Source: Bacteroidales bacterium
Lineage (GTDB): Bacteria > Bacteroidota > Bacteroidia > Bacteroidales > P3
Length of the DNA: 64,000 bases
Direction of reading: 5' to 3'
Assembly: GCA_017451385.1 (NCBI GenBank)
Contig: JAFSPS010000042.1
Location: 1-64,000 of the forward strand
Within the stretch, counting starts at the first letter, position 1; each line of letters opens with the position of its first letter. Below, piece after piece: positions 3,027 through 31,111 of the stretch. Below the pieces are notes generated by a model that had not been told where the DNA came from, did no database searches, and saw nothing but the letters and a program-made list of their open reading frames with translations. A program made the translations under genes and the position numbers.

Positions 3027-3092
3027 ATGATTGCATATCTACGGAGGCAGATTTCTCCTTTACGATACATAGCAAACGAAGATTGTGATATT

Positions 3093-4212: not shown

Positions 4213-4309
4213 GCTTCGTGCGGACTGCCGAAAGAAAGCATCGTAGTAGTCTCCGACAGAAACCTTACATGTATGATTGTTGTGTAGAATCAACGAAAAA
4301 AATGTCGTT

Positions 4310-5245: not shown

Positions 5246-5427
5246 CGAAAGCAGTGTCGTGGACACGCGATGGCAAGATGGCATAGACGCAGGACCAACA
5301 GAAAAAAAAACAGAAATACCCCCGTATGAGGATTGAAAAAAATAAATGACAGATAGTCAATATTTCAACCACTAAGAGGGTTGCATATAAAATCAAATTT
5401 ATTAGAAACTACCTAAAACAAAATAAT

Positions 5428-8172: not shown

Positions 8173-8316
8173 AACTACGATTGGCGAATGGCAGGCCTTG
8201 CATCGGCAACGCGTGCCATTCGCCCAATTACTATTGCGGATGGGAGGCTAACGGCTTACAACACTACTGCAGACATTACATATCACAACACACACACTAC
8301 CCACAACATACTGCTT

Positions 8317-12809: not shown

Positions 12810-14264
12810 ATGCCATCCCTTAAAAAAATTTTTAAAGGCATTATTGATGCTTTCGATTTTGAGAAAACAACAAGAAGCAATGATAATGTAGTATTGAAAA
12901 ACGATGACAGCACATCATTGCCACATGATGATGGCACATCATCGCGCAAAAAAGATGATTCTACTCTTTTTGCTGAAAACAATATTGGTAAAAAGGAGTC
13001 TGTCATACAATGCATCCGAAAGAGGAGTTATGAAATAAATGAGCAAGACATTCCTCGCTTCATAGAAGAGTTGAAACCTTTTTTGATTTCTAATAAAAAT
13101 GGTGACTACCTGAACGACTATGTATGCGACGATTATTATCGTTTCATTGACCTTCGGAAACATCCCGACTGTCGCGTAGTGGTCATAGGTGACATCCATT
13201 GCGACTATAAATCGCTCGCTGCTATACTTCTGAAACTCACAGTATCTGAGTACGATTATTTTGAGAAAGCATACTTTGTATTTATGGGTGACTATCTTGA
13301 CCGAGGCAGTGCATTATGTGAACCTCTTTTGCTATTAATGGATTTGAAGCAAATACTTGGAGAACGGTTAATAATGCTCCGCGGCAACCATGAACTAATC
13401 TCGTATAATGCTGAAAAAGAGATAATAGAGTCACGAGTGCTTCCTCAGCAGAGTGGTCCTACCCTAAACGAATATTGCGGCAATGACAAAGAATTTCTCC
13501 ATGCTTTTGCCGATTTTTTCAGAACGTTGCCCACTTACGTATATTTAAAAACCGATAAAGATAATATACTACTAACTCATGCGTCCGTACCTCGCCAAAT
13601 ATTCTTTGACACTTTTTATTATGACCAAAATACTGGCTCCATTGAATATGAGCACGGCTTTCTCTACGAGCAGGGGAAAAAAGCTGAGGAGAGCATATCT
13701 GACGACTCCCTTAAATCGAAAACAGAGAAGATGAATAACTCTCTTCTTACCATAAGAAATAAAATCCTTTTCGATATGATTTGGGGCGACCCTGTCCATG
13801 CTAAAGAAAAATACCAAGTATCAGGACGTTTTGAGTTCGGAAGCGACCAATACAATGCATACGCTAAAAAGAATAATATTACAAGGTTTTTTCGTAGCCA
13901 TGTGCCATTAGAATATGGTTATGAGGCATTCTTTGACAACCGACTATGGAGCATTTTTTCCTCTGGCGGAGCCGCCAATGAGCAAGCCGGATATGCGGGC
14001 ATTGAACCAGCATTCGCCATTATCAAGGACGACGGCTCATATTCAATAGAAAACAGCTATATCTATCGCGTTAGAATATGCCGTGGCGTGGTTGTCACGT
14101 GCAACATCTATTCCGGCGAACTGGTTGACGAGAATATGAACAAATACATGCTGAATAAAGAATTCACATGTTCTGGAGACGTCGCCATGCACATTGACAA
14201 CCTTTTTTCTGATATCAATGCTGGTTTCGCTACAGAGAATGACGATAATAAGTCCGAAGAATAA
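12810..14264 (+). CDS. PPP-family Ser/Thr protein phosphatase (metallophosphoesterase)
   Basis: All metal-site motifs of the PPP phosphatases are present: GDIHC at residues 127-131 (GDxHG with a final Cys), GDYLDRG from 160, RGNHE with N193, H194 and E195, H257 in LLTHASVP, and H364 in RSHVP. It should dephosphorylate Ser or Thr residues using two metal ions. The first 65 residues are a charged, repetitive tail (DDST, HDDGTSS and DDST again) outside the catalytic fold. No signal peptide is visible, so it is cytoplasmic. It heads a fifteen-gene co-directional array and is followed after 31 bases by a vWA gene and then a kinase. The likely substrates are the neighbouring vWA, kinase or FHA-binding proteins (inference). 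Confidence 0.85.
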   Translation: MPSLKKIFKGIIDAFDFEKTTRSNDNVVLKNDDSTSLPHDDGTSSRKKDDSTLFAENNIGKKESVIQCIRKRSYEINEQDIPRFIEELKPFLISNKNGDYLNDYVCDDYYRFIDLRKHPDCRVVVIGDIHCDYKSLAAILLKLTVSEYDYFEKAYFVFMGDYLDRGSALCEPLLLLMDLKQILGERLIMLRGNHELISYNAEKEIIESRVLPQQSGPTLNEYCGNDKEFLHAFADFFRTLPTYVYLKTDKDNILLTHASVPRQIFFDTFYYDQNTGSIEYEHGFLYEQGKKAEESISDDSLKSKTEKMNNSLLTIRNKILFDMIWGDPVHAKEKYQVSGRFEFGSDQYNAYAKKNNITRFFRSHVPLEYGYEAFFDNRLWSIFSSGGAANEQAGYAGIEPAFAIIKDDGSYSIENSYIYRVRICRGVVVTCNIYSGELVDENMNKYMLNKEFTCSGDVAMHIDNLFSDINAGFATENDDNKSEE

Positions 14265-14295
14265 TAACAATATTAACCAAAAAAAAACATAAATT

Positions 14296-14970
14296 ATGAG
14301 TTTACAAAAAAATGCGCAACAAATCAAATGCAAAGGCGTTGCAGATATTGTATTCTGCTTTGACTGCACAGGTTCCATGACAGAGATTATCGATTCTGTC
14401 AAAGAGAATGTTGAAGAGCTTGTTAAAGGATTTGGCGAAAACAATGTTATTCTTGACTGGCGTGCCCGTGTTATGGGTTATCGTGACTTCGATGTAGATG
14501 ATGAGTATCTTATCAATGACAGACCATTCGTATCAACTAAAGAAGAACTTAAAGAGCAGATTGACGGAATGAACGCCTTAGAGGGGTCAGGGGGGGACGA
14601 CCCAGAATCCACGCTTGATGCAATATGGTATGCTGCTAAAAAAAGTCCATGGCGGTCAAACTGCCATAAGGTTGTTGTTGTTTTCACCGATGCAGCGGCA
14701 AAGAGTGTTAATGAAAAAACTCTGGCAGATGTCAGCGGTTCCGATGGAGATTTGGATGTTCTAATTCAGGAACTAAATGTTCAGCATATCAAATTATTCT
14801 TATGGGGCATGAAGGATCCGATGTACGATGCAATGAAAACCATACCTCGTGCAGATATCTGCCAGTTTGAAAATCCCGAAGAGGAATACAAGCATTTAGA
14901 CTTCTCAAAACTCATGACTACAATTGGGAAAACAGTTTCCGACATAGCCACTAGCGGAACAGAAGCATAA
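14296..14970 (+). CDS. Cytoplasmic vWA domain protein (TerY-like), first paralog
   Basis: The whole 224-residue protein is a single vWA domain without signal peptide or membrane helix. The metal-ion site is D23-C-T-G-S27, followed by a PESTLDAI segment and the VVVVFTDA strand, both standard vWA positions. It resembles TerY-type vWA proteins, which in other bacteria are encoded with a kinase and a phosphatase. A closely related paralog is at 16213-16881, with the same DCTGSM and PESTLDAI segments. It lies between the phosphatase gene (31 bases upstream) and the kinase gene (20 bases downstream). A scaffold or phosphorylation-target role is inferred. Confidence 0.85.
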   Translation: MSLQKNAQQIKCKGVADIVFCFDCTGSMTEIIDSVKENVEELVKGFGENNVILDWRARVMGYRDFDVDDEYLINDRPFVSTKEELKEQIDGMNALEGSGGDDPESTLDAIWYAAKKSPWRSNCHKVVVVFTDAAAKSVNEKTLADVSGSDGDLDVLIQELNVQHIKLFLWGMKDPMYDAMKTIPRADICQFENPEEEYKHLDFSKLMTTIGKTVSDIATSGTEA

Positions 14971-14990
14971 CTGACAAATATATTTAGAGT

Positions 14991-16151
14991 ATGGACGCTA
15001 TACATGGTTACGAGATTGTAGAAGAAATCAATAAAGGTGGATTCTGCGATGCTTACAAAGTAAAAAAAGGCGGGAATACCTATTTCCTGAAACAATACAA
15101 AGACCCTACACCCATGTGTGACTACTATAGGGCTTTCATGGAAAATCAGACGACAATGATTCCGCTACTCAAGGCTTTAGGTGGACTTACGGAGACAATC
15201 ATTGAAGACTTCGAGGACAATGGACGCTATCATCAGGTCAAAGAGTTTATACCAGGTTCGACGAATCTTAGAGACTGGATGGAAACCAATGAAAATTATG
15301 ATGAGCGCCTTGATGCTGCCATTCAGTTCTGCGAAATCCTCAAAGCAGTCCATGAGAAAAAAATCATTCATCAGGACCTAAAGCCGGAACAGGTGATGAC
15401 AGTCAAAGACCCATCAAAAAAAGCGGGAATCAGACTGATTCTAACAGATTTTGATTGGTCTGTGCCTAATGGCAGAGAGGTGAAACGTGTCAATACTCCT
15501 GGCTATGGCAATATCGATGCCACATTGAGCTACAAGTCAGACATCTTCACGACAGGCATAATACTCTGTGAGCTCCTTACTGGCTGCAATCCCTACAATA
15601 TGCCAGAACTGGGCGAGAGAATATTCGAGCCGACACTATGGGTAGAGTGGGTGAAAAAACGCGATTATCTATCTCCCGTGAAAATCAATACCGATTTGCC
15701 CAAATATTTAAATGACATCATAACAAAATGTCTCGAGCCTAATGCCGAAGATCGTCCCACGATAGATGCCATTATCGATGCACTAAAAGGCAAGGTCTCC
15801 CGTATGAAAGCCAAACTGCGCTCTGCAAGTGGAGACATGATGATTATGGTTCCGGGTATGGCCTATGGACGCAAACACTTCAAGGAGTTGTTCGGCAGAA
15901 CAACTGACGAGGATGCCAACGAGATATACAAGTACCTCGACAAAACCTATGCAATACTTGATGTTGTACAAGAAGGAGATAAACTACTAATTAGCTGTCC
16001 AGCCTATGGCATGGCCAAGAATAAAATTTTGCTCCGTGGGGAAGAACTTACAGATGTTCCCACGCAAGCAAGGGATGGCGATACCTTAAGCATTTTCAGC
16101 ACCTCTAAGGACAAAGAGATTTGCTCACTATCATTGGAGATAAAGCAATAA
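14991..16151 (+). CDS. Ser/Thr protein kinase with C-terminal FHA-like domain
   Basis: Residues about 8 to 265 are a eukaryotic-type protein kinase: a glycine-rich loop INKGGFCDAY, K34 in YFLKQY, a catalytic loop H127-Q-D129-LKPEQ, and a metal loop D153-F-D155 (DFD in place of DFG). Later KSDIFTTGIILCELLTG matches the helix F region. HQD for HRD and DFD for DFG are unusual, but the Lys and both Asp residues are kept, so activity is plausible. The final 100 residues fit an FHA-like fold (GRKHFKEL, then NKILLRGEEL and RDGDTLSI), which would bind phosphothreonine. The phosphatase and two vWA genes flank it. With them it forms a phosphorylation module like the TerY-P triad, with a PPP phosphatase in place of PP2C. 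Confidence 0.85.
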   Translation: MDAIHGYEIVEEINKGGFCDAYKVKKGGNTYFLKQYKDPTPMCDYYRAFMENQTTMIPLLKALGGLTETIIEDFEDNGRYHQVKEFIPGSTNLRDWMETNENYDERLDAAIQFCEILKAVHEKKIIHQDLKPEQVMTVKDPSKKAGIRLILTDFDWSVPNGREVKRVNTPGYGNIDATLSYKSDIFTTGIILCELLTGCNPYNMPELGERIFEPTLWVEWVKKRDYLSPVKINTDLPKYLNDIITKCLEPNAEDRPTIDAIIDALKGKVSRMKAKLRSASGDMMIMVPGMAYGRKHFKELFGRTTDEDANEIYKYLDKTYAILDVVQEGDKLLISCPAYGMAKNKILLRGEELTDVPTQARDGDTLSIFSTSKDKEICSLSLEIKQ

Positions 16152-16212
16152 TCTTACAACACTAACATCGCACAAATAAATCATTTAATAATAAACTAAA
16201 ATAAATCATATT

Positions 16213-16881
16213 ATGGGTATTCAATTCAAAAGTGGTGTTTCAAACGTAATGAAAACAAAGGCTGTGGCCGACGTGGTATTCTGTTTCGATTGTACTGGCT
16301 CTATGGATTCAGTCATCGAAAATGTGAAGAACAATGTAAATAGATTCGTTGAAGGACTCAATGCCGACCAAAGCGTAATCATTGATTGGCGTATGCGTGC
16401 TGTAGGCTATGGTGATTTGGAATGTGGCGAAGAAATGCAGAACAGCAACGACTTTGTAAGCACCGTCCCCGAATTTCAAAAACAGGTGGCCGGAATCAGG
16501 ATGTGTGGCGGTGGCGATGAACCGGAATCAACCCTTGATGCCATATTAGTAGCTGCGAAGACATCAAAATGGCGTCGCGCTCACAAGATTATCGTCGTAT
16601 TCACAGATGCCCACACAAAAAACCTTCATCCTTCCACAAGCAAAAAATTTGCTGTAAACACCTTCGAGGAATTCAAACAAAGTCTGGCGGACGATCATAT
16701 CAAGCTATTCCTTTGGGGGGCCAACGACGAAAAATACAGCGGACTTAAATTGCTCCCCAATGCAGAGATTAATGAGATGGATAAACCACACGAGACGCTA
16801 TCATCGGGAGCCGACATGCGCTCTCTGCTCGAACTTATGGGCAAAACAGTGTCATCATTTGCTGGTTCAGAGGTACTGTAA
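16213..16881 (+). CDS. Cytoplasmic vWA domain protein (TerY-like), second paralog
   Basis: A single 222-residue vWA domain with metal site D26-C-T-G-S30, the DEPESTLDAI segment and IIVVFTDAH strand. It aligns along its length with the protein at 14296-14970, and the two genes flank the kinase gene, so they probably arose by duplication. No signal peptide is present. It precedes the LIM-DA1 peptidase gene by about 100 bases. Having two vWA partners could give one bound to the kinase or phosphatase and one to the peptidase (inference). Confidence 0.85.
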   Translation: MGIQFKSGVSNVMKTKAVADVVFCFDCTGSMDSVIENVKNNVNRFVEGLNADQSVIIDWRMRAVGYGDLECGEEMQNSNDFVSTVPEFQKQVAGIRMCGGGDEPESTLDAILVAAKTSKWRRAHKIIVVFTDAHTKNLHPSTSKKFAVNTFEEFKQSLADDHIKLFLWGANDEKYSGLKLLPNAEINEMDKPHETLSSGADMRSLLELMGKTVSSFAGSEVL

Positions 16882-16982
16882 GACTACCGACACACTACAA
16901 CATCATTCAACTATTCACTCTCGCCGAAGCCTATACACTATAGACTTGCCATCCCAACCACTATAATACAATAGGTATTATC

Positions 16983-17930
16983 ATGTCCATACACATCTGC
17001 ACTAAATGCGGCAAATTCATTAAAGGCAGTAAAACTCCCTATGGTGGAAAATACTACCATAGGGAGTGTATGGTCTGTGCTTACTGTGGTGGTGAACTAC
17101 ACGGCCGGATAGCAACTTTCAATGGTGATTTGTACCATCCTGAATGCAACCCTGCCTCTGGCAAGAAGATATGTGCCTACTGTCGCAAAGAAATCAACCA
17201 GTCTCATTATATAGTGGGCGACAAACGGTATCACAAAGAATGTTACCACAATCATATTCAGAAAAGGTGCGTGATATGCGGACAATCCATTACGGGTCCC
17301 TATGTTACTGACTATTGGGGTAATAGTGCTCACACATTGCATAACGGTGAAAAATCACAATTATGTTTTTCGTGCGGACGTTTCGTCTCAGCCCATCCTA
17401 CATATTTAGCACCCAACATAGCATTGTGCGAAATCTGTTCTTCCACAGCTATCACCACAGACTCTCAGGTAGAGGAATGTCGCTCAAAAGTACTTCAGAT
17501 ATTCCAATCGCGAAATGTCACGGGGATACCAGAAAAAATACCTGTTGTGTTAAAAAACAAAGAGTATTTGGGCAATGCTACGGGCAGAATAAAATACTCT
17601 ATATTCAACATACTTGGTGCCAGCGACTTCGTAATCGAGATGACCTATGGATTGCCAGAGCTTCATTTCCAAGGAGTGTTAGCACACGAGATGCTTCATT
17701 CTTGGCTTGCACTATACGCACGCAGCATGTCAAAAGAGGAGAACGAAGGTTTTTGTAATCTCGGCAGTGCTTTTGTCTATCAACACTTCGATACGCCACA
17801 CGCAAGTTATCTGTTAAAAAGCCTCTATAAAAGCACTGATGCCGTCTATGGTGACGGCTATAGGCAGATGAAAGAACGCTATGAGCATCTGGGATGGCTC
17901 GGACTGCTGGAATCTTTAAAGAGAAAATAG
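16983..17930 (+). CDS. LIM-domain plus DA1-type zinc metallopeptidase
   Basis: The N-terminus is a nearly perfect LIM domain: C6, C9, H26 and C29 for the first zinc, then C32, C35, H52 and C55 for the second. A second treble-clef set follows (C64, C67, H84, C87, C96, C99), and a further pair of CxxC motifs near residues 130 and 155. The C-terminal half contains H235-E-M-L-H239-SW and E255 in NEGFCN. This is the pattern of DA1 peptidases, known from plants as LIM-containing proteases that act on ubiquitin-pathway regulators. The whole protein is 315 residues and cytoplasmic. The start follows a 100-base gap after the second vWA gene, and the stop is one base before livH. It is probably the effector protease of the operon (inference). 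Confidence 0.85.
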   Translation: MSIHICTKCGKFIKGSKTPYGGKYYHRECMVCAYCGGELHGRIATFNGDLYHPECNPASGKKICAYCRKEINQSHYIVGDKRYHKECYHNHIQKRCVICGQSITGPYVTDYWGNSAHTLHNGEKSQLCFSCGRFVSAHPTYLAPNIALCEICSSTAITTDSQVEECRSKVLQIFQSRNVTGIPEKIPVVLKNKEYLGNATGRIKYSIFNILGASDFVIEMTYGLPELHFQGVLAHEMLHSWLALYARSMSKEENEGFCNLGSAFVYQHFDTPHASYLLKSLYKSTDAVYGDGYRQMKERYEHLGWLGLLESLKRK

Positions 17931-17931
17931 T

Positions 17932-18801
17932 ATGATATGGCAATTTATTGTTAACGGCATTATCTCTGGCACACTATATTCTCTGCTGGCCATAGGCTTT
18001 GCACTGGTGTACAACACTACCAAGCTGTTTCATATCACCGCTGCAGCCATCTATGTTTTTGCTGCCTATATGTTCTATCTTTTTTCTGTTGTCATCAATC
18101 TGCCCGTACTACTGGCCGCTACGGTAGCCATATCCTTAACGATGGCTTTGAGCCTCCTGACCGACGTGTCTGTCTATCGCCCGCTCAAACGTCGTAAGGC
18201 ATCTAACAACGTGGCCATGATTGCCTCTATAGGCATGATGACCGTGATTGTTAACCTGCTGGCCATGTTTTTCGGCAACGAGACCAAAGTCATCGACAAC
18301 ACCATACATCGCACCTTCGCCTATGGCAGCATTATCATCACTACTCCCCAGATGTGGCAGCTCGTTGTTGGCGGGATAGTGATAGCCTCCTTCCTGCTTT
18401 TCATCACGAAGAGTCAGTGGGGCATCCGTTTCCGAGCCCTGAGTGCCAACAGCACACTCTACGAGACATTGGGATATAGCACCACTCATGCCCGCATTTT
18501 TGTTTTTTTGTTGAGCGGACTCTTTATAGCTGTTGCGTCATGTCTGACCGTATATGATATTGGCCTCGACCCGCACATGGGCATGACCGTTCTCATCAAC
18601 GCCATGGTGGCCATGATTATTGGCGGCGTAGGGCGTTTCGGCACCTGTGTAGTCGGCGGCCTCGTCCTCGGTGTGATTCAGGCTCTGACGGTGTGGCAGT
18701 TCTCGTCCAACTGGCAGAACGCCGTCACCTTCGTCCTCCTGCTCATCCTGTTATTCATCCGTCCGCAGGGCATCGCGGGCTATAAACAACGCGCAATATA
18801 A
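17932..18801 (+). CDS. livH: Branched-chain amino acid-type ABC permease LivH
   Basis: A 289-residue hydrophobic protein with about eight membrane helices that begins IVNGIISGTLYSLLAIGFALV, typical of LivH, and contains the permease signature region with AMVAMIIGGVGRFG. It forms one half of the membrane channel of a Liv-type importer. Its start is one base after the LIM-DA1 stop, and its last base is the first base of livM, so the genes are almost certainly co-transcribed and translationally coupled. The substrate may be a branched-chain amino acid or a related small molecule; this subfamily also takes up amides and urea, so the substrate is not certain. Confidence 0.9.
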   Translation: MIWQFIVNGIISGTLYSLLAIGFALVYNTTKLFHITAAAIYVFAAYMFYLFSVVINLPVLLAATVAISLTMALSLLTDVSVYRPLKRRKASNNVAMIASIGMMTVIVNLLAMFFGNETKVIDNTIHRTFAYGSIIITTPQMWQLVVGGIVIASFLLFITKSQWGIRFRALSANSTLYETLGYSTTHARIFVFLLSGLFIAVASCLTVYDIGLDPHMGMTVLINAMVAMIIGGVGRFGTCVVGGLVLGVIQALTVWQFSSNWQNAVTFVLLLILLFIRPQGIAGYKQRAI

Positions 18802-19676
18802 TGGAATACCTGCTACACTTAGGAATAATGCTGTGCATCTATGTCATCTTGGTCCTCAGCACCAATCTGACGGTAGGCATGGCCAACCTGCTGACGATGT
18901 GCCAAGCAGCCTTCTACGGTATCGGCGCCTATGTAGGTACCTACTTCTTGATGCAGTTCAATCTGCCGTTCATTGCCATAGCACTGATAGTGATGGCTGC
19001 CACAGGACTCACGAGCCTTCTCGTCTCTTATGCCTCTGTGAAGCTGAAGGGCGATTACTTTATCCTTGCCACACTCGGCTTTCAAATGATAATATTCACC
19101 ATCCTCTATAACTGGATTAGCGTCACGCGAGGACCTTACGGCATTCCCGGCATACCCAGCATCAAGCTGTTTGCAATCTGGAACCTTAATGGCATCTACC
19201 CATATTTCTTCTTCTCGTTGCTGACGGCCGCCTTGGTTGTCTGGATTATCAGCCGTCTGCAGCACTCGCCCTATGGGCGTATGCTCAAAGCCATACGCAC
19301 CGACGAACTGTCGGCGCAGGCCTTGGGACGTGACACCACTCGGCTGAAGTCATGGGCGTTCTTCATCTCGGCAGCCTTTGCCGGACTGGCAGGCACCATC
19401 TACGCCTCTTATGTTAGCTATATTGACCCCACCAGCTTCACCCTCGACGAGAGCATCTTCATCATTACCGCTCTCTTCATCGGTGGCACGGGCAGCCGCA
19501 TATGGGGGGCTATTGCTGGTGCCGCCGTGGTGGTACTCCTGCCCGAACTACTGCGCTTCGTCGGCCTGCCAGATGCCGTAGCTGCCAACCTCAGACAGAT
19601 AATCTACGGCCTCGTTCTGATAGTGTTGATGTTTGCCAAACCTCAAGGTCTGTTCGGCGATGCCAGTATTAAGTGA
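18801..19676 (+). CDS. livM: Branched-chain amino acid-type ABC permease LivM
   Basis: A 291-residue multi-helix permease with the LivM-type TNLTVGMANLLTMCQAAFYGIGAY start and the conserved EAA-like loop AIRTDELSAQALGRD, where the ATPase docks, and a FIGGTGSRIWGAIAG segment. It overlaps livH by one base (TAATG) and is followed by the two ATPase genes. It is the second permease subunit of the importer. Confidence 0.9.
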   Translation: MEYLLHLGIMLCIYVILVLSTNLTVGMANLLTMCQAAFYGIGAYVGTYFLMQFNLPFIAIALIVMAATGLTSLLVSYASVKLKGDYFILATLGFQMIIFTILYNWISVTRGPYGIPGIPSIKLFAIWNLNGIYPYFFFSLLTAALVVWIISRLQHSPYGRMLKAIRTDELSAQALGRDTTRLKSWAFFISAAFAGLAGTIYASYVSYIDPTSFTLDESIFIITALFIGGTGSRIWGAIAGAAVVVLLPELLRFVGLPDAVAANLRQIIYGLVLIVLMFAKPQGLFGDASIK

Positions 19677-19704
19677 ACTGTGATATGTGAAAAGAGAAAC
19701 AAGG

Positions 19705-20490
19705 ATGATTTTAGAACTCGAAGATATCAGGATGAGCTACACTAATGCCCGCAAAGAGGTTTTCAACCTTCTCAACGGAGTCAATCTATCCGTCGAAAGC
19801 GGCAAGGTGACAGCCCTTATTGGCGGCAACGGCGCAGGCAAGACAACGCTCTTCAACATCATCTCTGGTTTTGAGCGAGGCTTCAGCGGTCATGTCCGCT
19901 TGGGGGGACGCGACATCTCTCGCCTACCGGCATATCGCATCTCGACCATGGGTCTCGGCAGACTATTCCAGGGCCGCCAGCTGATGGCCGACCTCACACT
20001 GATGGAGAACATGAAGATTGCCAGCGACGACATCATGGGCGAGTCACCCCTCGACTGCTTCTTTCGCACAAAACGAGTACGCTGCAGCGAAAACGACAAA
20101 GAGCGGCGCGCCGTGGAGATACTTACAAAGGTCTTCGGACACGACAATAAATATCTCGGGATGTTAGACCACAAGGCTTCCGAATTCTCCTACGGCGAGC
20201 AACGTCTCATAGCCATGGCGCGGCTCCTCATGGGCAACGACCGGCTCCTGCTGCTTGACGAACCTACCAGCGGAGTCAACCCACGATATAATGATGCCTT
20301 CCGCACAATCATACGCGACATGGTGGAACAGGACGGACAGACAGTCCTCCTGATAGAACACAACATGAACTTCGTGCGCAGTGTGGCTGACATTTGCCAC
20401 TACCTATCAGACGGAAAAATCATCAAGAGCGGTTCTACTGCCGACGTACTCGATGACCTTGAAATACGAAAAAACTATCTTGGGCTATGA
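19705..20490 (+). CDS. livG: ABC transporter ATPase LivG
   Basis: Contains a Walker A loop GGNGAGKTT, a signature SYGEQR (in place of the canonical LSGGQ, as is common in LivG), a Walker B LLLLDEPTSG and a switch histidine in LLIEHNM. The length of about 260 residues and the long insertion after the Q-loop match LivG. I chose the ATG at 19705; an in-frame GTG lies at 19687, and the AGAGAAACAAGG between them could be a ribosome site. It overlaps the next gene by four bases. It powers the Liv-type importer. Confidence 0.88.
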   Translation: MILELEDIRMSYTNARKEVFNLLNGVNLSVESGKVTALIGGNGAGKTTLFNIISGFERGFSGHVRLGGRDISRLPAYRISTMGLGRLFQGRQLMADLTLMENMKIASDDIMGESPLDCFFRTKRVRCSENDKERRAVEILTKVFGHDNKYLGMLDHKASEFSYGEQRLIAMARLLMGNDRLLLLDEPTSGVNPRYNDAFRTIIRDMVEQDGQTVLLIEHNMNFVRSVADICHYLSDGKIIKSGSTADVLDDLEIRKNYLGL

Positions 20491-21281: not shown

Positions 21282-21285
21282 AATC

Positions 21286-22404: not shown

Positions 22405-22408
22405 TATA

Positions 22409-25400
22409 ATGCCTGAGACCATGCGCGATAATGAATTATCCATTGATAATCTTGATGATACCATTCATCAATATATGTCAAAAATTTCACAGATTATCAC
22501 CCAAGATATAAATGTGTACTCTTTAGAAAAATATGCTGAAGCCTTCTTAAAAGGATTCAGCATTGACAAGCATAACATTCTGAAAGAAAATGAAAACGGA
22601 ATACTATGCTATGACTTAATGATATGCCAGAACCCGTTGGAGATAGAAAAAAAACAGTTTTTTTTTACTTTTTTCTCCACCCAAAATGTCTTTAATCAGA
22701 AAAAAAAATTAGCCAATTTATATCAAAAATATCTTGATGACTATCCTGAATATCATATTGATACCATGTTACAAATATGTTATTCTGATAAATATCAAGA
22801 TACCACCATACAGAATGGTTTTTGTCTTAAATTTGATAATGATAGTTGCCAAATAGTTTCTCTAACAGGAAATCAATTGTCCATTTTTCATTTAGACCCC
22901 GAAAGAAACAATATATACAACACGATTCTTGAAAAGCGACAAAATGGATCAGACGAACTTCTCATTAGAGAGATTGAGGGGAAAATTGACGAATTCAATT
23001 CTAAAGAATCCGACGAAGATTCAAATTATACTAGTTATAGTGATGCTTTTCTTAATATCCCATCACCTGGAACAAGTAAAAATCGCCTCAAAAAAAAGCA
23101 AATTGCAAAGAATGTTTATCGTGTTGCATTTATAAATGAAATTGCAGTGCCTGGCATTAAACGCATGTATTTTATTCCCATTCCATTCCCTAATAAGAGC
23201 CAAATCGGTCATTTTGTCTTGTCCACTAATGGTAACGATTTGGACAAAGATTTAGACTATATCAAAAAATTTAAAGCCCTATCTTTTGTCCTATTATTTC
23301 CAGTTTCGCAAATCAATCTGTCATCTATTTACATCAATAAAGCAAGATTTGAAGCCATCAAATCTGCCAAAGCCGCCATTATGTCTCGCAATATGAGTCA
23401 TAATTTGGGTAGTCATGTGATGTTTTATATCAAGCAACGTTTGCAGTCGGTAGAGAAAATTATCGGGACCGGCGCATTGAAAGATTTGGTGGCAGCGAAC
23501 TCTATTGAGGAAATAGATGCAAGTAAATTCGGAGACACGGAGATGCCTTTTCTTGTTGGATTAGGACGATTTATTAACTATCTACAGGAACGACAGGATT
23601 TCATTGCTACTATTGCCACAAATTACATACCTTATTTTGCCACGATAAACTTTAAAGATGCCATCTACGATGAACTAAAACCAGAAAAGAAAGCCATTCG
23701 ACATAATCAAGAAAAGGGACAGAAAGCCGCCAACCTCTTGTTGGCTTACATCGCCAATTCGGAGGGATTTACCAAGAGTGATGACATTAACCTTTACTGG
23801 GAAGACACATTCTTTGGAGATGGCAACGTACCTGATGACCTCAGAACATTCAATATCGCACTCCCCGGTGGCAACTTGGGACGACAGGCATTTTTTTCTA
23901 TCATGGAAAACATCATACGCAATACGGCAAAACATGACGGAAAGAATGCAACAGGAAATAAATTGGTATTCCAATTCGACATCATCGAACCAAATGATAT
24001 TGATAGAACGATTAACAACAAGGAGATTTTTAAATACAGCCTATGCAAAGGGCAGAAAGAAAAAGACGGAAGCATTATCCCCCCCATACCTAACGATTGT
24101 TATTCAAAGACCAAGGACGACTTGTTTTATCTCGGCATCACTGTCAAAATAAAGCAGAATAACGTAGAAAAAACCATTGAAAAAATTGGCGAAGGCTTAG
24201 TTCGCAATTATTTGACCGACAATGACGAAATGGACGACGAATGTAAGGGGATAAAAGAGATGCGTATCTCAGCCGCATGGCTTAGAGGATGGAACATCGA
24301 CACAGATATAACAGAAGATAAAACTCCGGCTGTCGCCGTAAGGAAAAATGGAGATTATGTGCAATACATCATCGGTCTTCCGAAACCGAAAAGGGTTGCC
24401 ATTGTATCAGAGAAAAAAGAAGACAAAGAGATGTATCATGAACGTGGATGCATGGTGTTCCGTCCAGCGTCAGATGAAAGCGAAATAAAAAAAATCAACA
24501 GATATGACTTAATTGTCTATGATGGGGAAGAGGACGATGCTGAATACCAAAATATTAAGTACAAATTACATTCGAGAATTTTCGCTGAAACACTTGATGA
24601 TGAATGGATTAAAAAGATTGATGAATTATACAAAAAATGGATAGAAAAACTATTCCCGATAAGCAGTAACACAAAAATAAGTATTATCGACGACAAAGTA
24701 GAAGAATCAGTCAATATCTCTAATGACGTTAAGGGAAAAATATATTCAAAAAAAGACACCAGCGAAACCAATAGAGTGTATTACGAAGGCAACATTGTAT
24801 TCAACACTCACTATGCTGGACAAGCAAGTCCAAATCTAAAAGGGGACAAGTCATTATTTTCAACTGCCCGTTTTGTTGAAGCGATATCTGGCGGGAACTC
24901 AACAGACAGGCTAATCCGACATGACGAACGCAACATGTTATGGTATTGTAAACATATCGCCACCGGCTTAACAAAGATTGCCATATTCGATGAACGTTTG
25001 TATAAGCTTACAACCGACGGAAAGAACGGAATAGACAAAGAACTAACTATAGATAAAGATAGGATTAGCGAATTTCTAAAAACAGAATCTAAGGAATCGT
25101 GTTCCCTAATAAGGCTCCTTCAAAAAATGACTGCCAAGTTTCACTTTAGCACCATTATGAATGATATATATGGATTTTTGAAAACAAAAGAAATAAATGC
25201 AGACAACTTCTTAGATGCTTTCCGCTCGATAAATAAGGATTACTCTGAGACATGGAGATATATTGAAAAAGGCATTTGGACATTCAATATAATAATAGCA
25301 AAAATTGAGGAGAAAAGTATAATAAAGATTATCGGATATAATTATGCACCAACGGAGAATGGACGTATCGGACTATACAGCGACAAGACATGCGAAGAAA

Positions 25401-25816
25401 CAATTGCACATATAATAAAAAAAGAAGACGATAAGATCGAGGTCAACCTGATGAATGACGACTTCCATGGGAAGTTCGATTTTATCACCATACACCAAGG
25501 ATTGCTTGACAAGATATATGGTGCTTTAGGCATTGATAGCGAGAACGTAGAAGGACGCGAATCCGTCACAAAGGCATTATTCGATGCTTTTTCGAGAAAG
25601 ACAGAAGAATCCAAAGGTATTGAATATAAAATCAATGGCAAAGGCCACAAAGGGTATTTCCTACCACAGTTTGTTGTCCATTCCGGCCGGTCGAAACCGA
25701 ATCATAAAGACATGCCTCAACACCTGCCATTCCTTCAATTTACGGCAGTGGACCATGCTTTGAGAGATTGCAAATACATATTAACAGAACTATTATATTC
25801 CGCACATTATGAGTGA
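22409..25816 (+). CDS. Large histidine-kinase-like protein with divergent H and N boxes
   Basis: The 1135-residue protein has no signal peptide or clear membrane helix. A phosphoacceptor-like H-box is at SRNMSHNLGSHV with H331. A GHKL ATPase N-box follows at E500-N-I-I-R-N505-T-A-K-H509. A glycine-rich strand GEGLVRNYLTD and an RISAAWLRG segment could be degenerate G boxes. The N-terminal 320 residues and the C-terminal 480 residues are not recognised. The C-terminal part may be an output domain. The H-to-N spacing is longer than in standard kinases. It overlaps the next gene by eight bases. A receiver protein is encoded two genes later, so the two may form a divergent two-component pair. Catalysis is unproven. 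Confidence 0.7.
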   Translation: MPETMRDNELSIDNLDDTIHQYMSKISQIITQDINVYSLEKYAEAFLKGFSIDKHNILKENENGILCYDLMICQNPLEIEKKQFFFTFFSTQNVFNQKKKLANLYQKYLDDYPEYHIDTMLQICYSDKYQDTTIQNGFCLKFDNDSCQIVSLTGNQLSIFHLDPERNNIYNTILEKRQNGSDELLIREIEGKIDEFNSKESDEDSNYTSYSDAFLNIPSPGTSKNRLKKKQIAKNVYRVAFINEIAVPGIKRMYFIPIPFPNKSQIGHFVLSTNGNDLDKDLDYIKKFKALSFVLLFPVSQINLSSIYINKARFEAIKSAKAAIMSRNMSHNLGSHVMFYIKQRLQSVEKIIGTGALKDLVAANSIEEIDASKFGDTEMPFLVGLGRFINYLQERQDFIATIATNYIPYFATINFKDAIYDELKPEKKAIRHNQEKGQKAANLLLAYIANSEGFTKSDDINLYWEDTFFGDGNVPDDLRTFNIALPGGNLGRQAFFSIMENIIRNTAKHDGKNATGNKLVFQFDIIEPNDIDRTINNKEIFKYSLCKGQKEKDGSIIPPIPNDCYSKTKDDLFYLGITVKIKQNNVEKTIEKIGEGLVRNYLTDNDEMDDECKGIKEMRISAAWLRGWNIDTDITEDKTPAVAVRKNGDYVQYIIGLPKPKRVAIVSEKKEDKEMYHERGCMVFRPASDESEIKKINRYDLIVYDGEEDDAEYQNIKYKLHSRIFAETLDDEWIKKIDELYKKWIEKLFPISSNTKISIIDDKVEESVNISNDVKGKIYSKKDTSETNRVYYEGNIVFNTHYAGQASPNLKGDKSLFSTARFVEAISGGNSTDRLIRHDERNMLWYCKHIATGLTKIAIFDERLYKLTTDGKNGIDKELTIDKDRISEFLKTESKESCSLIRLLQKMTAKFHFSTIMNDIYGFLKTKEINADNFLDAFRSINKDYSETWRYIEKGIWTFNIIIAKIEEKSIIKIIGYNYAPTENGRIGLYSDKTCEETIAHIIKKEDDKIEVNLMNDDFHGKFDFITIHQGLLDKIYGALGIDSENVEGRESVTKALFDAFSRKTEESKGIEYKINGKGHKGYFLPQFVVHSGRSKPNHKDMPQHLPFLQFTAVDHALRDCKYILTELLYSAHYE

Positions 25817-26642
25817 TTCAAAAGAAAAAACAAAGGTCGTGATAATAACACGATCAGGAGAGTATATAGAAGAAAACAACAAGTCTAAAAAAGGACGAGA
25901 ATGTTATGGGAACGCGATAAATGACAATACCTATTTCCCCGAAAAATCAATTATACGGGAGATAATTTGCAATGTAATCGCAGAAAGAAACCTAAATAAT
26001 TGGGATGAAGAAGACCTTTATAGTATGGCTGAAAACGAGGGCATTAATATTCCAGACGATGAAAAATATCTAGAACTTAATAATGCTCGTAATTTTGTAT
26101 TTGAAGAATTGGCAGAGAGAGTGAAAGAGAAAGTGAAAAATAGCACAAGCCTCGAAAAATTCTACAGTAGTTTTTCAAAGCAAAAAGATGGTAAAACATA
26201 CGATATAACTATGCTTCTTTGGGATAAATTACTTCCTTGGAACGAATTAAAAATAAACAAACCTGGGGATATTAAGATAACAAAGATGGATGAGTTTATT
26301 ACTGAATTGTGCAAGGATTTAGAAATAGTAGCAATAGATAATGGGGGAGATGCCATACTATATGTTCATGACAAACAAATCGGGCATAATGGCGACCAAA
26401 TAATAATCGATGCAGAAAATTCTACGGATGACAAAACGAATACTTCCGGATATGAAATAATGAAAAAATATTTTAAGTATGTTGCAGCGTTTGCTCATGG
26501 AGCAACGGGAGGAATTTTTCAGGATAATATTTTAAAGTTTGAATTTGGACCACCTATCGCAGAAAAAATATCAAAAAAAGAGCCTGACGCAAAAATGTTC
26601 CGTCATCTGCGAGAGGAATCTGACAAAATATTAAATGAATAA
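25809..26642 (+). CDS. Conserved-context protein of unknown function
   Basis: A 277-residue soluble, acidic and lysine-rich protein with no signal peptide. Its start overlaps the kinase-like gene by eight bases, which argues for translational coupling. The C-terminal half contains DNGGDAILYVHDK and AAFAHGATGGIF segments that look like parts of an alpha/beta fold, but I do not recognise a family. It lies between the kinase-like and receiver-like genes, so it may be an adaptor in that pathway (inference). Confidence 0.65.
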   Translation: MSDSKEKTKVVIITRSGEYIEENNKSKKGRECYGNAINDNTYFPEKSIIREIICNVIAERNLNNWDEEDLYSMAENEGINIPDDEKYLELNNARNFVFEELAERVKEKVKNSTSLEKFYSSFSKQKDGKTYDITMLLWDKLLPWNELKINKPGDIKITKMDEFITELCKDLEIVAIDNGGDAILYVHDKQIGHNGDQIIIDAENSTDDKTNTSGYEIMKKYFKYVAAFAHGATGGIFQDNILKFEFGPPIAEKISKKEPDAKMFRHLREESDKILNE

Positions 26643-26683
26643 TCAGAATTAGTAATAGTTATTGATATAAAAAGGGGAGCACT

Positions 26684-28615
26684 ATGGATGATAAATTTTC
26701 TGCCGTAATAGAAATAAATAGAACGGGATGGCACTATCCTAAAAATATTTACAATCCAATTGAGAATTACTTGAATAATAGTCTTTTAAAAGGATTTAAA
26801 ATTGCAGGGACAGACACACCGATACAATTTCAAATTATTTATCACAGGATAAAGGACATCTATGGAGGCGACTGGTTGGGAGGGTTTGAATCATCTGAAC
26901 AGCTTTACCCAACACCAACAGTACACCTAACTCTTTATGATATTTTCCATCACAATGTAGATAAACTTCCACCTCCCAAAAGATATTGTAAAATCATAGA
27001 TAGCAATATCTGGAATTATTATGTGCCATTAGAAACTGCCAGAGATGCAGATTGGAAATATGATGATAACTACGCATTATTCACTCGGATTATAAAAGAG
27101 ATTGCACACAATACAAAAAAAGGGCTCTACAACCTATCCGTAACACATGAACATGCTGACCTAAATGCACGTTTGGCAAAACAGTCTTATCTATCTGGTA
27201 GTCACAAAGCCATCTCGCCATTTCTTTTTCATTCCGAAAATGAGATGAAAGGTAAAATCGATGACTTCGAGAATGAAGAAAACCATGAAGTCACAATAAA
27301 AACTATCCGTAAATACAAATGGAGGGTCCTGTTACTTGACGACAAGTGTATTGAACCTATGTCTAAAGACGAAAGTAGCAACACTACTGTATATATCAAC
27401 AAACTACAGATTATCGCCAACAGTATAAGTCGTATTCTGCATTTTGACGAAGATAAAATATGGTTTAGACAATTTCACTTCAAAGAAAACAAATTTGAAG
27501 AATCTCTTAATGATTTCGACAAGGATTCATACGGCAACATAAAAACCTATCGGAGAAAGGGTGATTCTGATGACAAGGCGGAATTAGATATTAAGTATGA
27601 TTTATACCAAGTTCAGAATAGTAATTTTACAAATGGACAATATAAGTGTTGGCGGGAAACACATATATCGACTGATGATATCCAAATTGTCATTGACTGC
27701 GTTGAGACCATCGACGAGGCAGAGTACTGCCTAAAAAAATACAAATACGAAATAGTGCTGTTGGATTATCTTCTTGAAGAAAAGAACGACAAGACAAGAT
27801 ATGGCTATGAACTGCTTGAAAAGATACATAAGTGGCATATAGACAAAAAGAAACGTAAGAAAAACAACAGCAGTGACGAAAAACGTGACAGCGGAGACGA
27901 AGAACTTGACAGGCTCTATATGCCAGGTCCAAACAATCGTTTTTTTATCATGTTCATCTCTGCCTTTCAGACCGCCGTACACGAACGCATGCTCGAAAAA
28001 GGCTTTGCCCGAACCGAGAGAGAGCTTTGGCATATCGGCAATGGCGCCTGTCCGACCAATACACCTTATCTATTCTCACATCAGCTGATGCAGCTGATGC
28101 GTCACAGAATCCATGATTTAAAGAAAGATAAAGAGGGTGGAAAGATGAGCATCATCGACCTATTGGAATGTATCTACGTGAAGACCGAGAATGGGGTACA
28201 GGATATTCGGGAGGATGCCTACAAGTACTTTAACAACCTGCTTTTCATGCGTGAGAAATATAAAAAACTGGAGAACGACTTAAGCCGCGACGACGAATGG
28301 TACATGATAGATAATCCCAACGACGCTAAATACCTAATGGGAATGAAGAGTTCTCTTTTGCTATGGTCGGCATTTAAAGTGGTACACCATTTCTCGGGAG
28401 CATTCTTTGACCACCTACAGCATCTGGTATATCTAACCGCCTTCGGCACTATACGACAGTGGCAGGAAATGTGGGAGGAGTATGTCTTTGTCTATAAAGA
28501 GTTATGCGAGTACGACAAATACGTGGACGATGAGGGATGTGAGCAAAAAAGAGGAAGAAAGATTAGCGACGCTATACAACAATACATAATCAGTCTAAAA
28601 GAGCATAACGACTAA
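26684..28615 (+). CDS. Receiver-domain (response-regulator-like) protein with a large insertion
   Basis: A 643-residue soluble protein. The middle carries a receiver-like core: the acidic pair in VLLLDDK (D219, D220), the candidate phosphoacceptor D361 in EIVLLDYLL, then RYGYELLEKI and IMFISAFQ, which match strands 3 to 4 of a receiver. The distance from the acidic pair to the phosphoacceptor is about 140 residues instead of about 45, so roughly 90 residues are inserted between strands 1 and 3. The N-terminal 210 and C-terminal 200 residues are unrecognised; no DNA-binding helix-turn-helix is evident. The stop overlaps the start of the following membrane-protein gene (TAATG). It is probably the phosphorylation partner of the kinase-like protein at 22409. 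Confidence 0.65.
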   Translation: MDDKFSAVIEINRTGWHYPKNIYNPIENYLNNSLLKGFKIAGTDTPIQFQIIYHRIKDIYGGDWLGGFESSEQLYPTPTVHLTLYDIFHHNVDKLPPPKRYCKIIDSNIWNYYVPLETARDADWKYDDNYALFTRIIKEIAHNTKKGLYNLSVTHEHADLNARLAKQSYLSGSHKAISPFLFHSENEMKGKIDDFENEENHEVTIKTIRKYKWRVLLLDDKCIEPMSKDESSNTTVYINKLQIIANSISRILHFDEDKIWFRQFHFKENKFEESLNDFDKDSYGNIKTYRRKGDSDDKAELDIKYDLYQVQNSNFTNGQYKCWRETHISTDDIQIVIDCVETIDEAEYCLKKYKYEIVLLDYLLEEKNDKTRYGYELLEKIHKWHIDKKKRKKNNSSDEKRDSGDEELDRLYMPGPNNRFFIMFISAFQTAVHERMLEKGFARTERELWHIGNGACPTNTPYLFSHQLMQLMRHRIHDLKKDKEGGKMSIIDLLECIYVKTENGVQDIREDAYKYFNNLLFMREKYKKLENDLSRDDEWYMIDNPNDAKYLMGMKSSLLLWSAFKVVHHFSGAFFDHLQHLVYLTAFGTIRQWQEMWEEYVFVYKELCEYDKYVDDEGCEQKRGRKISDAIQQYIISLKEHND

Positions 28616-30450
28616 TGAATCACGGCCGTTTTTTTGAGTTTGATTTTGAGAGCTCCCTACTGCAAAAAGGAGTTACCGTTTTCAACTACCGATGGCTGAA
28701 GCACGACCTGATACATAAGGGGATAAAAACACCGCATTATCCAATCTATGTAAGCGTCTCTCCGGAGGTCATCAGTTTCAAACTACACTATATTGAAGAC
28801 AACGAAACGGACAGTAAAAACTCATTTGTCAAGCACTATCATAACACCATCATCGAACTACGTCTATCCCAAAATATTGAAGTGTCAGAGGGACTGGCAG
28901 AAGTGCTAAACAATACTTATTGGGCTCAGTTCCCGGTGAATGAAAATACACAACTACGCAAGACTATTGAAAAATCATTCGAAAATCAAGACTGCGAGGA
29001 ATATGGCTTCGCCGACTTCCCATGCTTCGCTCCGGAAGGGAAAGAGCGATATATAACAACCAGCAATAATCCAAAGACACATTTCCTTAGGAAGCTGATA
29101 CTTGACTTCCTCTTCGACTTTGAGTTTACCGATGTATTCAAAAACGCAGCCTATTACTACGCATTGTCCGTCAAACTAAAAGAAAACTACCTATTCAACG
29201 CACTGATAAACAAGACTCGCTATTACTACTATCGTACAGAATTGTGTCAAAGAGAGGTCGTTGAGAGGTGCTATGGCGCAACTGATACAAAAAAATGCGA
29301 ACAGTCGCTTATTTCTTTCTTTGAACTGTACTCCAAAACCGAGTGCAAATGGATGGAGTCAATTCTGGATGAACGAGCAGTACATGCATTCCACAACTCT
29401 CCATGGTTCAACGAGGTGAGCGAAGAATTGGAACAAGTATATTTTTCCAATAGGCTGAAACACTGGAAAAAGAATGATGACCATAAAGCAAGGGTAATCC
29501 CAGCTGTGGGAAAAAGTGACAGCATCGTCTCCGTCGTCGAATCTGTCCGTAAAAGAAATGCGTGGAAAACATATCTAAAACGAATAGGGGCTACTGACGA
29601 CAGTTTTCAACTGACGGTAAGCAACCTGCTTAGCTTGATTAGACGTAGGTACTACAAAGATAAGAAAACACGCAAGACCAAGAAATCCGAATTCCATAAC
29701 GCCGTGTACGGCCACAGCAATACCGCAAAAAAAGCAGCTGCATGGGAAGTGAGCCATTACCATTTTATCGGACTTTGGCGATTGTGGTTCGGCGACACGG
29801 CTACAATGTGGTGGTCGGTAATAGCGTTAGGGCTAATGTTTGGAATAATCTTTTTTGCTTCATGCATTTTGCATGAAAGTCCAAATCTATCGGCATACTG
29901 GTTCATCATCCCAGCATCAACAGTTACCTCATTGTTTGTGCTCTCAACCTATATTGTACGACGTCATTATCGTAGCACATGGGGCATTGGCGGCATGGCG
30001 GTAATTCTCCCTCGACTATTGGCTGCCGTAATTGCAGCATGGTTTACCATGGGAATGAGCGAAGACCTGTTCAGAAACTTTTATGATATATCTTGCCTAA
30101 ACCCAGCTGTCACTATTATTATCAGCATCGTAACACTATTCTTTGTATTCTACGAGGCTCGACAGATAAACCCCTTTGACGGTTTTAAACACCAAATCAC
30201 ATCATCCTTGATTGTCATTCTAATGGCGTATGTTTATTCATTTATTGTGGGGATAATGGTTTATGAATATTTTGGCGTGCAGGTGCTTAACGGTATGAAA
30301 ACAAGTGGCGGGATATGCTGTTGTTCTCATTCGATAACTAACGGAGAGAATAACTGGTGGTTTATTGCTCAGTTTTCATTTTTTGCAACCTTCATCGGCA
30401 TATTCCTACAACTAATGTTTCAAGGAAAATCTGTAACAGCATCAAAATAA
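28615..30450 (+). CDS. Six-helix membrane protein of unknown function
   Basis: Residues 1 to about 390 form a soluble domain with several Tyr-rich stretches and no recognised motif. Residues about 395 to 605 contain six strongly hydrophobic helices, beginning with MWWSVIALGLMFGIIFFASC. A cluster of three Cys (ICCC) lies in the last loop. It begins within the stop of the receiver-protein gene. The topology suggests a cytoplasmic domain attached to a membrane pore or anchor, which could be the output channel or membrane platform of the system (inference). Confidence 0.65.
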   Translation: MNHGRFFEFDFESSLLQKGVTVFNYRWLKHDLIHKGIKTPHYPIYVSVSPEVISFKLHYIEDNETDSKNSFVKHYHNTIIELRLSQNIEVSEGLAEVLNNTYWAQFPVNENTQLRKTIEKSFENQDCEEYGFADFPCFAPEGKERYITTSNNPKTHFLRKLILDFLFDFEFTDVFKNAAYYYALSVKLKENYLFNALINKTRYYYYRTELCQREVVERCYGATDTKKCEQSLISFFELYSKTECKWMESILDERAVHAFHNSPWFNEVSEELEQVYFSNRLKHWKKNDDHKARVIPAVGKSDSIVSVVESVRKRNAWKTYLKRIGATDDSFQLTVSNLLSLIRRRYYKDKKTRKTKKSEFHNAVYGHSNTAKKAAAWEVSHYHFIGLWRLWFGDTATMWWSVIALGLMFGIIFFASCILHESPNLSAYWFIIPASTVTSLFVLSTYIVRRHYRSTWGIGGMAVILPRLLAAVIAAWFTMGMSEDLFRNFYDISCLNPAVTIIISIVTLFFVFYEARQINPFDGFKHQITSSLIVILMAYVYSFIVGIMVYEYFGVQVLNGMKTSGGICCCSHSITNGENNWWFIAQFSFFATFIGIFLQLMFQGKSVTASK

Positions 30451-30475
30451 AACAATAATAAAATAATCAATAAAA

Positions 30476-31111
30476 ATGGAAAGGTTACAAGAAAATCAGA
30501 ACAGGGAAAGTTCATCAACCCTTGAAGGCATTAAAAAAAACTATCAATTTTACACAACCGTCTCGTGCGGTGTGTTTGTTTGGTCAATGGTACTCTCCAT
30601 AGCTTTTTCTTTCAAAACAAACGAATGGAGTTTCGGGGTTATCCTCATGTTGTTTCTCAATCTTATTCTCGCTGTTCTCTCAATCATATCTCTTGTGGCA
30701 ATGTACAGAGAATTGAGCCGCCTACATGAAAAAGAACAAACAATAAAAAAGATATGCGAAGACTTTACAAACGAAACACAAAAAAGGATTAATAATTTGG
30801 AAGATAAATGCAAAGACTTTGCAAATGAAACACAAACAAGGATTAATAATTTGGAAGATAAATGCAAAACAATAGAAGAAAAATGCAAAGACTTTGCAAA
30901 CGAAACACAAAAAAGGATTAATAATTTGGAAGGTAAATACAAAACAATAGAAGAAAAATGCAAAGACTTTGCAAACGAAACACAAAAAAGGATTAATAAT
31001 TTGGAAGATAAATGCAAAACAATAGAAGAAAAATGCAAAGACTTTGCAAATGAAACACAAACAAGGATTAAAGGATTGGAAGAGGAACTAAAAAAAACTG
31101 ACGATGAATGA
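30476..31111 (+). CDS. Membrane-anchored coiled-coil protein with 25-residue repeats
   Basis: Two hydrophobic segments (about residues 25 to 45 and 50 to 75) form a membrane hairpin. The rest is a charged coiled coil made of about four 25-residue repeats (75-bp DNA period), with the recurring parts KDFANETQ, RINNLEDKCKTI and EEKC. One unit is shortened to 18 residues. The near-identical DNA repeats suggest recent expansion and length variation. It is the last gene of the operon. A spacer or oligomerisation role at the membrane is inferred. Confidence 0.7.
   Translation: MERLQENQNRESSSTLEGIKKNYQFYTTVSCGVFVWSMVLSIAFSFKTNEWSFGVILMLFLNLILAVLSIISLVAMYRELSRLHEKEQTIKKICEDFTNETQKRINNLEDKCKDFANETQTRINNLEDKCKTIEEKCKDFANETQKRINNLEGKYKTIEEKCKDFANETQKRINNLEDKCKTIEEKCKDFANETQTRIKGLEEELKKTDDE

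Follow-up and report, generated by a model that had tools for sequence, protein, structure and literature searches.

A sporadically inherited gene package pairing a Liv-type importer with a divergent histidine-kinase-like protein in Bacteroidales, and its possible role in importer-fed signalling

Fifteen open reading frames (ORFs) occupy positions 12810..31111 of the window, by which we mean the whole 64,000-nt stretch of a Bacteroidales genome analysed here (JAFSPS010000042.1, positions 1-64,000 of the forward strand). We refer to these fifteen genes as the module. All lie on the + strand with -8 to +101 bp between neighbours, as a sequence-only reading of the same DNA had described them (a single strand, with overlaps or short gaps); the preceding gene ends 974 bp upstream and the following gene lies 301 bp downstream. 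Pfam supports a Metallophos protein, two vWA proteins, a protein kinase, a LIM plus DA1-like protein and all five parts of a Liv importer. For the histidine-kinase-like protein (hereafter HK) and the 277-amino-acid (aa), receiver-like and 611-aa proteins Pfam returns nothing at E<=0.01, and their identity rests on motifs and on comparison with relatives.

The first five genes, block B, form a kinase, phosphatase, vWA and peptidase arm. A 484-aa PPP-type (calcineurin-like) phosphatase (12810..14264; Metallophos, 5.4e-13; 43% identity to its copy in G034, the congener described below) has all of the motifs GDxHxD, GDxxDRG and GNHE. It is followed by a 224-aa vWA protein, vWA1 (14296..14970; Pfam VWA_4/VWA), with a MIDAS-like DCTGS motif, by a 386-aa Ser/Thr kinase (14991..16151; Pkinase, 2.7e-18; 40% to the G034 copy) with HQDLKP and TDFD, and by a second, 222-aa vWA protein (16213..16881) which matches Pfam vWA and is by sequence comparison a paralogue of vWA1 (44%). 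The fifth gene (16983..17930) encodes a 315-aa protein with LIM (3e-11) and DA1-like (1e-10) matches over the Pfam cut-off and the HExxH motif HEMLH. The LIM-DA1 peptidase of the sequence-only reading is therefore retained, with the qualification that the DA1 match spans only 42 of 213 model positions; the FHA-like tail which it had ascribed to the kinase was not borne out, this C-terminal tail being unrecognised by Pfam. In both congeners the PPP, vWA, kinase and DA1 proteins retain the catalytic or metal motifs; the G034 DA1 copy is shorter, and its alignment begins at residue 96, past the best LIM match.

Block A runs from LivH to the 611-aa membrane protein. It opens with LivH-type (17932..18801; BPD_transp_2, 9.7e-27) and LivM-type (18801..19676; BPD_transp_2, 5.8e-40) permeases, LivG-type (19687..20490) and LivF-type (20487..21281) ATPases (both ABC_tran), and a 372-aa LivK-type substrate-binding protein (21286..22404; Peripla_BP_6, 4.3e-38; PDB 4gnr, 2e-20) in which a regular expression finds a lipobox-like LGSC. 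Two BPD_transp_2 permeases, two ATPases and a Peripla_BP_6 protein are the parts of a HAAT/Liv ABC importer. Then come the 1135-aa soluble HK (22409..25816), assigned by motifs common to the other HK loci, hydropathy and a profile match; a small soluble protein of 277 aa (25809..26642; hydropathy; 25% to the G034 copy by sequence comparison); a divergent receiver-like protein of 643 aa (26684..28615), assigned by LLLDD (216), LLDYLL (D361) and the equivalent position in relatives; and the 611-aa membrane protein (28615..30450), which by hydropathy has a soluble N-terminal part and six hydrophobic segments and has copies in G034 and in L008, a cut contig of an Odoribacteraceae metagenome-assembled genome. 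The last gene of the module (30476..31111) encodes a 211-aa protein with two transmembrane segments by hydropathy and, by repeat analysis, coiled-coil-like 75-bp tandem repeats. The tandem 54/75-bp repeats at 30754-31071 encode a coiled-coil-like stretch behind the two hydrophobic segments, which is reflected in weak PADLOC matches of the protein (ZorA and others); no match to this gene was found in the 40 kb of G034 examined.

This gene set is more than a chance neighbourhood. It recurs in G034, a 68% complete genome of the same genus, and outside these two genomes no LivM, vWA1 or receiver-like gene turned up in the family members or relatives that were searched, most of them draft genomes. 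Among 61 genomes, made up of the window's own (G000) and its relatives, the receiver-like protein and vWA1 (at E<=1e-15) are each present in two, G000 and G034; LivM at E<=1e-10 is found in the same two of 190 family genomes, and only inside the module. Since vWA1 and LivM are confined to the same two genomes, members of both blocks have been gained or lost together. Thirteen of the fifteen window genes have same-strand counterparts within a 40-kb stretch of G034, at identities from 19% (LivK) to 62% (LivM). There the order on one strand is LivH-LivM-LivG-LivF-LivK-methyltransferase-HK-small protein-receiver-membrane protein-DA1-vWA-PPP-kinase, with gaps up to about 310 bp; neither the second vWA gene nor the 211-aa gene has a counterpart of its own there, and the G034 module contains one vWA gene of this kind. 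The window thus has block B (PPP-vWA-kinase-vWA-DA1) then block A, and G034 has A then B. Conservation of gene order, the test proposed with the sequence-only reading, gives a divided answer: the blocks are swapped and block B is reordered, and block A keeps its order save for the inserted methyltransferase. Its claim that the fifteen genes belong together is supported by this recurrence, and by a core common to three other genomes of the phylum sample. At the site of the module, compared on the right flank only as the window begins at a contig end, none of six congener stretches carries module genes (22 of 31 genomes matched, own included).

LivM at E<=1e-30 is found in 24 of the 395 genomes of the phylum sample, which takes in part of the phylum, and we examined its surroundings in 12 of the 23 other genomes, several of these stretches being ended by contig ends. 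In G616, G805 and G859 an HK-like gene lies behind LivHMGFK, the common core being LivHMGFK, HK and receivers. An HK profile (alignment A2) matches G000 and these three genomes, each with LivHMGFK upstream in the same gene run; its own rows match by construction, and the information is that no further genome among the 395 does. A two-row HK profile matches G000 alone among 393 genomes of the order sample, and the HK profile matches 1 of 65 genomes in G859's genus. Furthermore, an HK search of viral_contigs (IMG/VR) confirmed one locus, L064, with the order double ABC ATPase, radical SAM enzyme, SBP_bac_5 protein, two permease-like proteins, HK, and a receiver plus sigma54-activator-type protein. 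Its importer is of the oligopeptide type (the binding protein by Pfam, the remaining parts read from sequence or BLAST), so that the importer type has been swapped and the position beside HK kept. All six HK loci carry an importer, of the Liv type at five. Five of the six also carry an enzyme cassette: a methyltransferase (G034); a pyridoxal-phosphate (PLP) enzyme and a methyltransferase (G616); a B12 radical SAM enzyme; an SDR and a PLP enzyme; or a radical SAM enzyme (L064), all kinds that often act on small molecules. Other partners differ. In G805 the genes downstream of HK encode a TerB-bearing M48 peptidase, a vWA protein and a Tubulin_2 protein, and a response regulator of the LuxR type is encoded immediately before LivH; in G859 a PP2C gene lies upstream of LivH. 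The recurrent theme is an importer with HK and receivers, accompanied by variable partners. Two side observations belong to these loci. Genes that read by eye as a type I restriction-modification set lie upstream of LivH in G616 (L041:1409-8330), and a small protein encoded close to the G034 module (L007:11201-11581) is related (32%; 4e-14) to one in the G805 locus (L052:13552-13986).

The HK copies share a distinctive series of motifs. In the window protein we found an H-box, MSHNLGSH (H331), an N-box, ENIIRNTAKH (500), and C-terminal FDER (860), IHQG (1028) and SGRS (1092). Regular expressions recover the H-box at all six loci as MSHN[IL]GSH, or YAHNMGAH in G805, at a position that fits a phospho-acceptor, and the N-box ENxIRN likewise at all six; in G859 the motifs are spread over two ORFs split by a frameshift. 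The C-terminal series reads DER/DDR, IHxG/S (LHLS in L064) and [ST]GR[GS], the DER and LHLS of L064 having been read from its printed tail. Unbroken copies measure 1135-1365 aa. By hydropathy the window, G034 and G805 proteins are free of hydrophobic segments, whereas the G616 copy has a borderline one close to its N-box and in G859 one falls where the second ORF artificially begins; the membrane anchor of kinases of the BceS or PhoR type is thus absent from the window HK. The core of this HK compared with profiles from five E. coli histidine kinases gives E 2.8e-4 at the N-box, with a probability of 41% (other families, E 0.14-0.88), a match that we consider suggestive rather than conclusive. 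A receiver identity for the C-terminal segment was rejected, having no profile support, and a PDB sequence search with the HK and receiver profiles returned nothing usable.

The receiver-like proteins of the window and G034 contain LLLDD and LDYLL, and D361 is invariant in three of three copies (window, G034, L008). At the equivalent position Pfam recognises receivers in G616 (2e-9) and G805 (1e-15), and the G859 protein falls just below the cut-off (8e-6). Pfam recognises no DNA-binding domain in the window receiver. The G616 (L051:10581-12422) and G859 (L053:8579-10366) receivers end in RNTVAH and RNEASH, which we take to be the Rx4H form of HEPN RNases and which could be RNase outputs; the G616 protein matches DUF4145 at 0.0016, below cut-off, and the two ends gave no profile alignment to each other. 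The motif RNxxxH/RDxxxH is absent from the window receiver, for whose C-terminal part a HEPN identity was rejected for want of any support.

That the fifteen genes form one transcription unit is plausible from their spacing. Exact matches to the Bacteroidetes-type promoter consensus, a motif taken from general knowledge (7 against 0.83 expected), lie on the + strand at 3097 and then at 47647, with none between 3127 and 47646; this is weak evidence, since promoters often depart from the consensus. Terminator-like matches on the + strand within 11700-31500 number three, all intragenic. Against a single unit, the same interval holds 70 sigma-70-type matches on both strands versus 54.7 (sd 6.7) in shuffles. 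The GC content is 32-45% in block B and from LivK through the 211-aa gene, and 48-53% in LivHMGF alone; the surroundings have 46-55% (3085-11835), 48-53% (the four genes downstream) and 51% past 42 kb. A foreign origin inferred from GC was rejected, the AT-richness of the window module not being repeated in block B of G034, which has 48-54% like its surroundings; low GC (34-48%) is confined there to part of block A. Rfam gave no match at gathering score in 1-45000, and a PHROGs search matched only families of unknown function. Directly downstream of the module, on the same strand, four BspA-type LRR_5 genes follow one another, with DUF6383 at the C-terminal end of their products (31413-41426). 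A leucine-rich-repeat-like protein is also encoded near the G034 module (L007:12703-13560). At its contig start (4-2967) the window encodes a highly repetitive protein of 987 aa.

The gene package is probably one working system. From the gene content, the co-inheritance, the importer-HK linkage, the conserved motifs and the lack of a membrane span in the window HK, we propose, with a probability of roughly 45%, a sporadically inherited cytosolic phospho-signalling system fed by an importer. The LivK-type lipoprotein would capture an amino-acid-like small molecule, which LivHMGF would import into the cytoplasm. This molecule, or transport itself, would be read by the giant soluble HK-like protein and its 277-aa partner, and HK would hand a phosphate to the receiver-like protein. 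Execution or gating of the response may then fall to the six-span membrane protein and to a second arm made up of the Ser/Thr kinase, the PPP phosphatase, the vWA proteins as scaffolds and the LIM-DA1 peptidase. The one or two enzymes present at the locus in most relatives could produce the signal molecule or alter it; the window has no such enzyme, and its ligand would therefore come from another gene or from outside. The envelope-linked small-molecule sensing suggested by the sequence-only reading is close to this proposal and fits a binding lipoprotein and importer beside a soluble kinase-like protein, sensing itself being still presumed; the evidence from co-inheritance is new.

Several observations weigh against this proposal. 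Pfam recognises no HATPase_c, HisKA or receiver domain in the window proteins. Four further HK copies likewise give no HATPase_c match at E<=1, and inspection by eye shows no clear G1 ATP-box in the window HK. Profile support is modest, at 41% for HK against the E. coli kinases. The window receiver compared with four E. coli receivers reaches E 0.007 at the acceptor-Asp strand with a probability of 6% (decoys, E 0.18-0.42), and against the relatives' receivers E 0.041 with 1% and a poor alignment. The window has no enzyme between LivK and HK, and is the sole exception among the six HK loci in lacking an enzyme cassette. In G894 a contig breaks off after LivH, LivM, an ATPase, LivK and a methyltransferase, and its genome has no match to the HK profile; L008 has the C-terminal part of the receiver and the membrane gene, with no HK found in its genome. 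The window PPP, vWA1, kinase and DA1 proteins have no BLAST match in the stretches from G616, G805 and G859. Finally, LivK divergence gives no clear sign of a change of ligand. G000 and G034 share 21% in LivK versus 56-62% in LivH/LivM, a ratio of 0.35 that is the lowest of 55 pairs; we dropped it as evidence for a ligand switch, since ordinary Liv pairs come near (0.41-0.42; LivK 30-34% versus 71-82%), some of their LivK partners possibly being non-orthologous.

The main rival, which we consider somewhat unlikely, is a conflict system of anti-phage or abortive type, in which HK/receiver and vWA/kinase would sense infection or a small second messenger and the peptidases, HEPN-like domains or the six-span protein would be growth-stopping effectors. 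The very sporadic distribution would suit it, as would the GC of the window module below that of its flanks, the restriction-modification-like genes adjoining the G616 module, the TerB domain of the G805 peptidase, and the HEPN-like receiver ends in G616 and G859 with the sub-threshold DUF4145 match. However, those ends cannot be aligned by profile and the window receiver lacks the motif. HK has no match on plasmids (several HK searches) or phages (window HK only), and a defence system would not ordinarily include an entire uptake transporter. PADLOC run on 10 window proteins matches the kinase only, and on 10 further proteins (9 from relatives' loci and the 211-aa protein) only the coiled coil of the latter; no specific model of a known anti-phage system (PADLOC/NCBIfam) is matched, antiphage_MADS6 reaching 71.8 bits against a cut-off of 460. 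Effectors of vWA conflict systems do include receiver domains (PMC7159879, PMC8195603, in the parts available), but the available part of PMC7159879 reports no histidine kinase domains among vWA-associated effectors.

An ordinary nutrient uptake operon, whose two-component-like pair merely controls LivHMGFK expression, seems to us decidedly unlikely. A regulator beside a transporter is common, and G805 has its LuxR-type regulator just upstream of LivH. Against this, no DNA-binding domain is recognised in the window receiver, L064 retains HK beside an importer of another type, and the G034 module includes counterparts of eight genes that do not serve transport; within the family, LivM is confined to this module.

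The last alternative has two or three independent neighbour modules, Liv-HK-receiver, PPP-vWA-kinase-DA1 and an FtsZl1 operon. The third of these is a possible partner at 3085..11835 of the window, on the + strand, with a 375-aa weak-vWA protein (VWA 0.0052, below cut-off), a 322-aa membrane protein, Tubulin_2/FtsZl1 (5428-8172; 1.5e-47) and a papain-like peptidase (8188-11835; Peptidase_C1, 3e-16). Tubulin_2 lies close to the module in the window and belongs to the module's gene run in G805; G034 and G859 encode it on contigs other than that of the module, and G616 and G894 lack it. It exceeds the cut-off in 8 of the 61 genomes, namely G048 and 7 of the 37 genomes from the genus, G000 and G034 being two of them, with G013 counted only with its neighbours in frame, and falls below it in 2 more. 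We rejected this operon as a fixed part of the module, as other congeners carry Tubulin_2 without the module and G616 has none; a link to the module is possible, and independence is quite likely for FtsZl1 alone. As to block B, a vWA1 search of plasmids gave 17 records, of which four were inspected (L092, L093, L094, L095). A Microvirga plasmid has a vWA gene then kinase and PPP phosphatase genes on the same strand, with no Liv or HK genes in the 28.7 kb examined around the trio; Rhizobium and Herpetosiphon plasmids have vWA with kinase, and a Tolypothrix plasmid several vWA genes, FHA, PP2C and kinase. The modules had been described as rarely encoded together, which does not hold for this trio. 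The PPP-vWA-kinase trio is thus a set found elsewhere that is here joined to block A. Independence of the blocks themselves would agree with their swapped order in G034, the trio alone in Microvirga, Tubulin_2 in congeners without the module and the differing GC of LivHMGF, but it is quite improbable, vWA1 and LivM sharing one pair of genomes and lying close together in each.

If importer-fed signalling is the correct reading, some bacteria would use ABC importers as the input to cytosolic phospho-signalling, and two-component and eukaryote-like Ser/Thr signalling would be combined in one cassette. It would also provide a concrete gene set for finding new small signal molecules, and a kinase family missed by current domain libraries. 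A further generalisation, unlikely as it stands, would be an import-type signalling class, of which we found no description, in which each locus makes or modifies a signal of its own with a swappable enzyme cassette, a dedicated and swappable ABC importer retakes it and a new soluble HK family (C-terminal DER / HxG-S / GRG) reads it, the enzyme-less window copy being a listener to the signals of other producers.

Transporter-linked two-component systems are known, among them BceAB-BceS, Pst-PhoR and LuxP-LuxQ. The module resembles them in having the gene of an ABC importer or binding protein beside HK-like and receiver genes. It differs in its soluble kinase-like protein of 1135-1365 aa with an unrecognised C-terminal segment, in its Liv- or oligopeptide-type importer, and in the added Ser/Thr kinase, phosphatase, vWA and protease genes. 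In the RRNPP systems of Firmicutes, peptide pheromones imported by Opp are sensed by a tetratricopeptide-repeat (TPR) regulator. In the proposed reading an ABC importer would likewise bring in a signal to be read inside the cell, in the cytoplasm, but the reader is kinase-like and not a TPR protein, the importer is Liv-type at five of six loci, and enzymes, not peptide genes, are nearby. The TerY-P sets of Ter type combine vWA, kinase and a PP2C phosphatase. The module shares the trio of vWA, Ser/Thr kinase and phosphatase, and the G805 locus has a TerB domain; the window phosphatase is, however, Metallophos/PPP and not PP2C, and no Ter family is matched by Pfam among the fifteen genes at E<=0.01. 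A full-text literature search, with most subscription journals outside its reach, found no published account of this gene combination, which does not prove its absence. Operons of FtsZl1, vWA and protein kinase were described by Makarova & Koonin 2010 (PMC2875224), and a reviewer's comment in the available part of that article mentions an Arthrospira FtsZl1 gene beside the periplasmic component of a branched-chain amino acid ABC transporter. Unlike those operons, as far as that part of the article describes them, the present loci have an HK/receiver and LivHMGF module to which FtsZl1 is not always linked; like them, the window and G805 have Tubulin_2 and vWA genes near the module.

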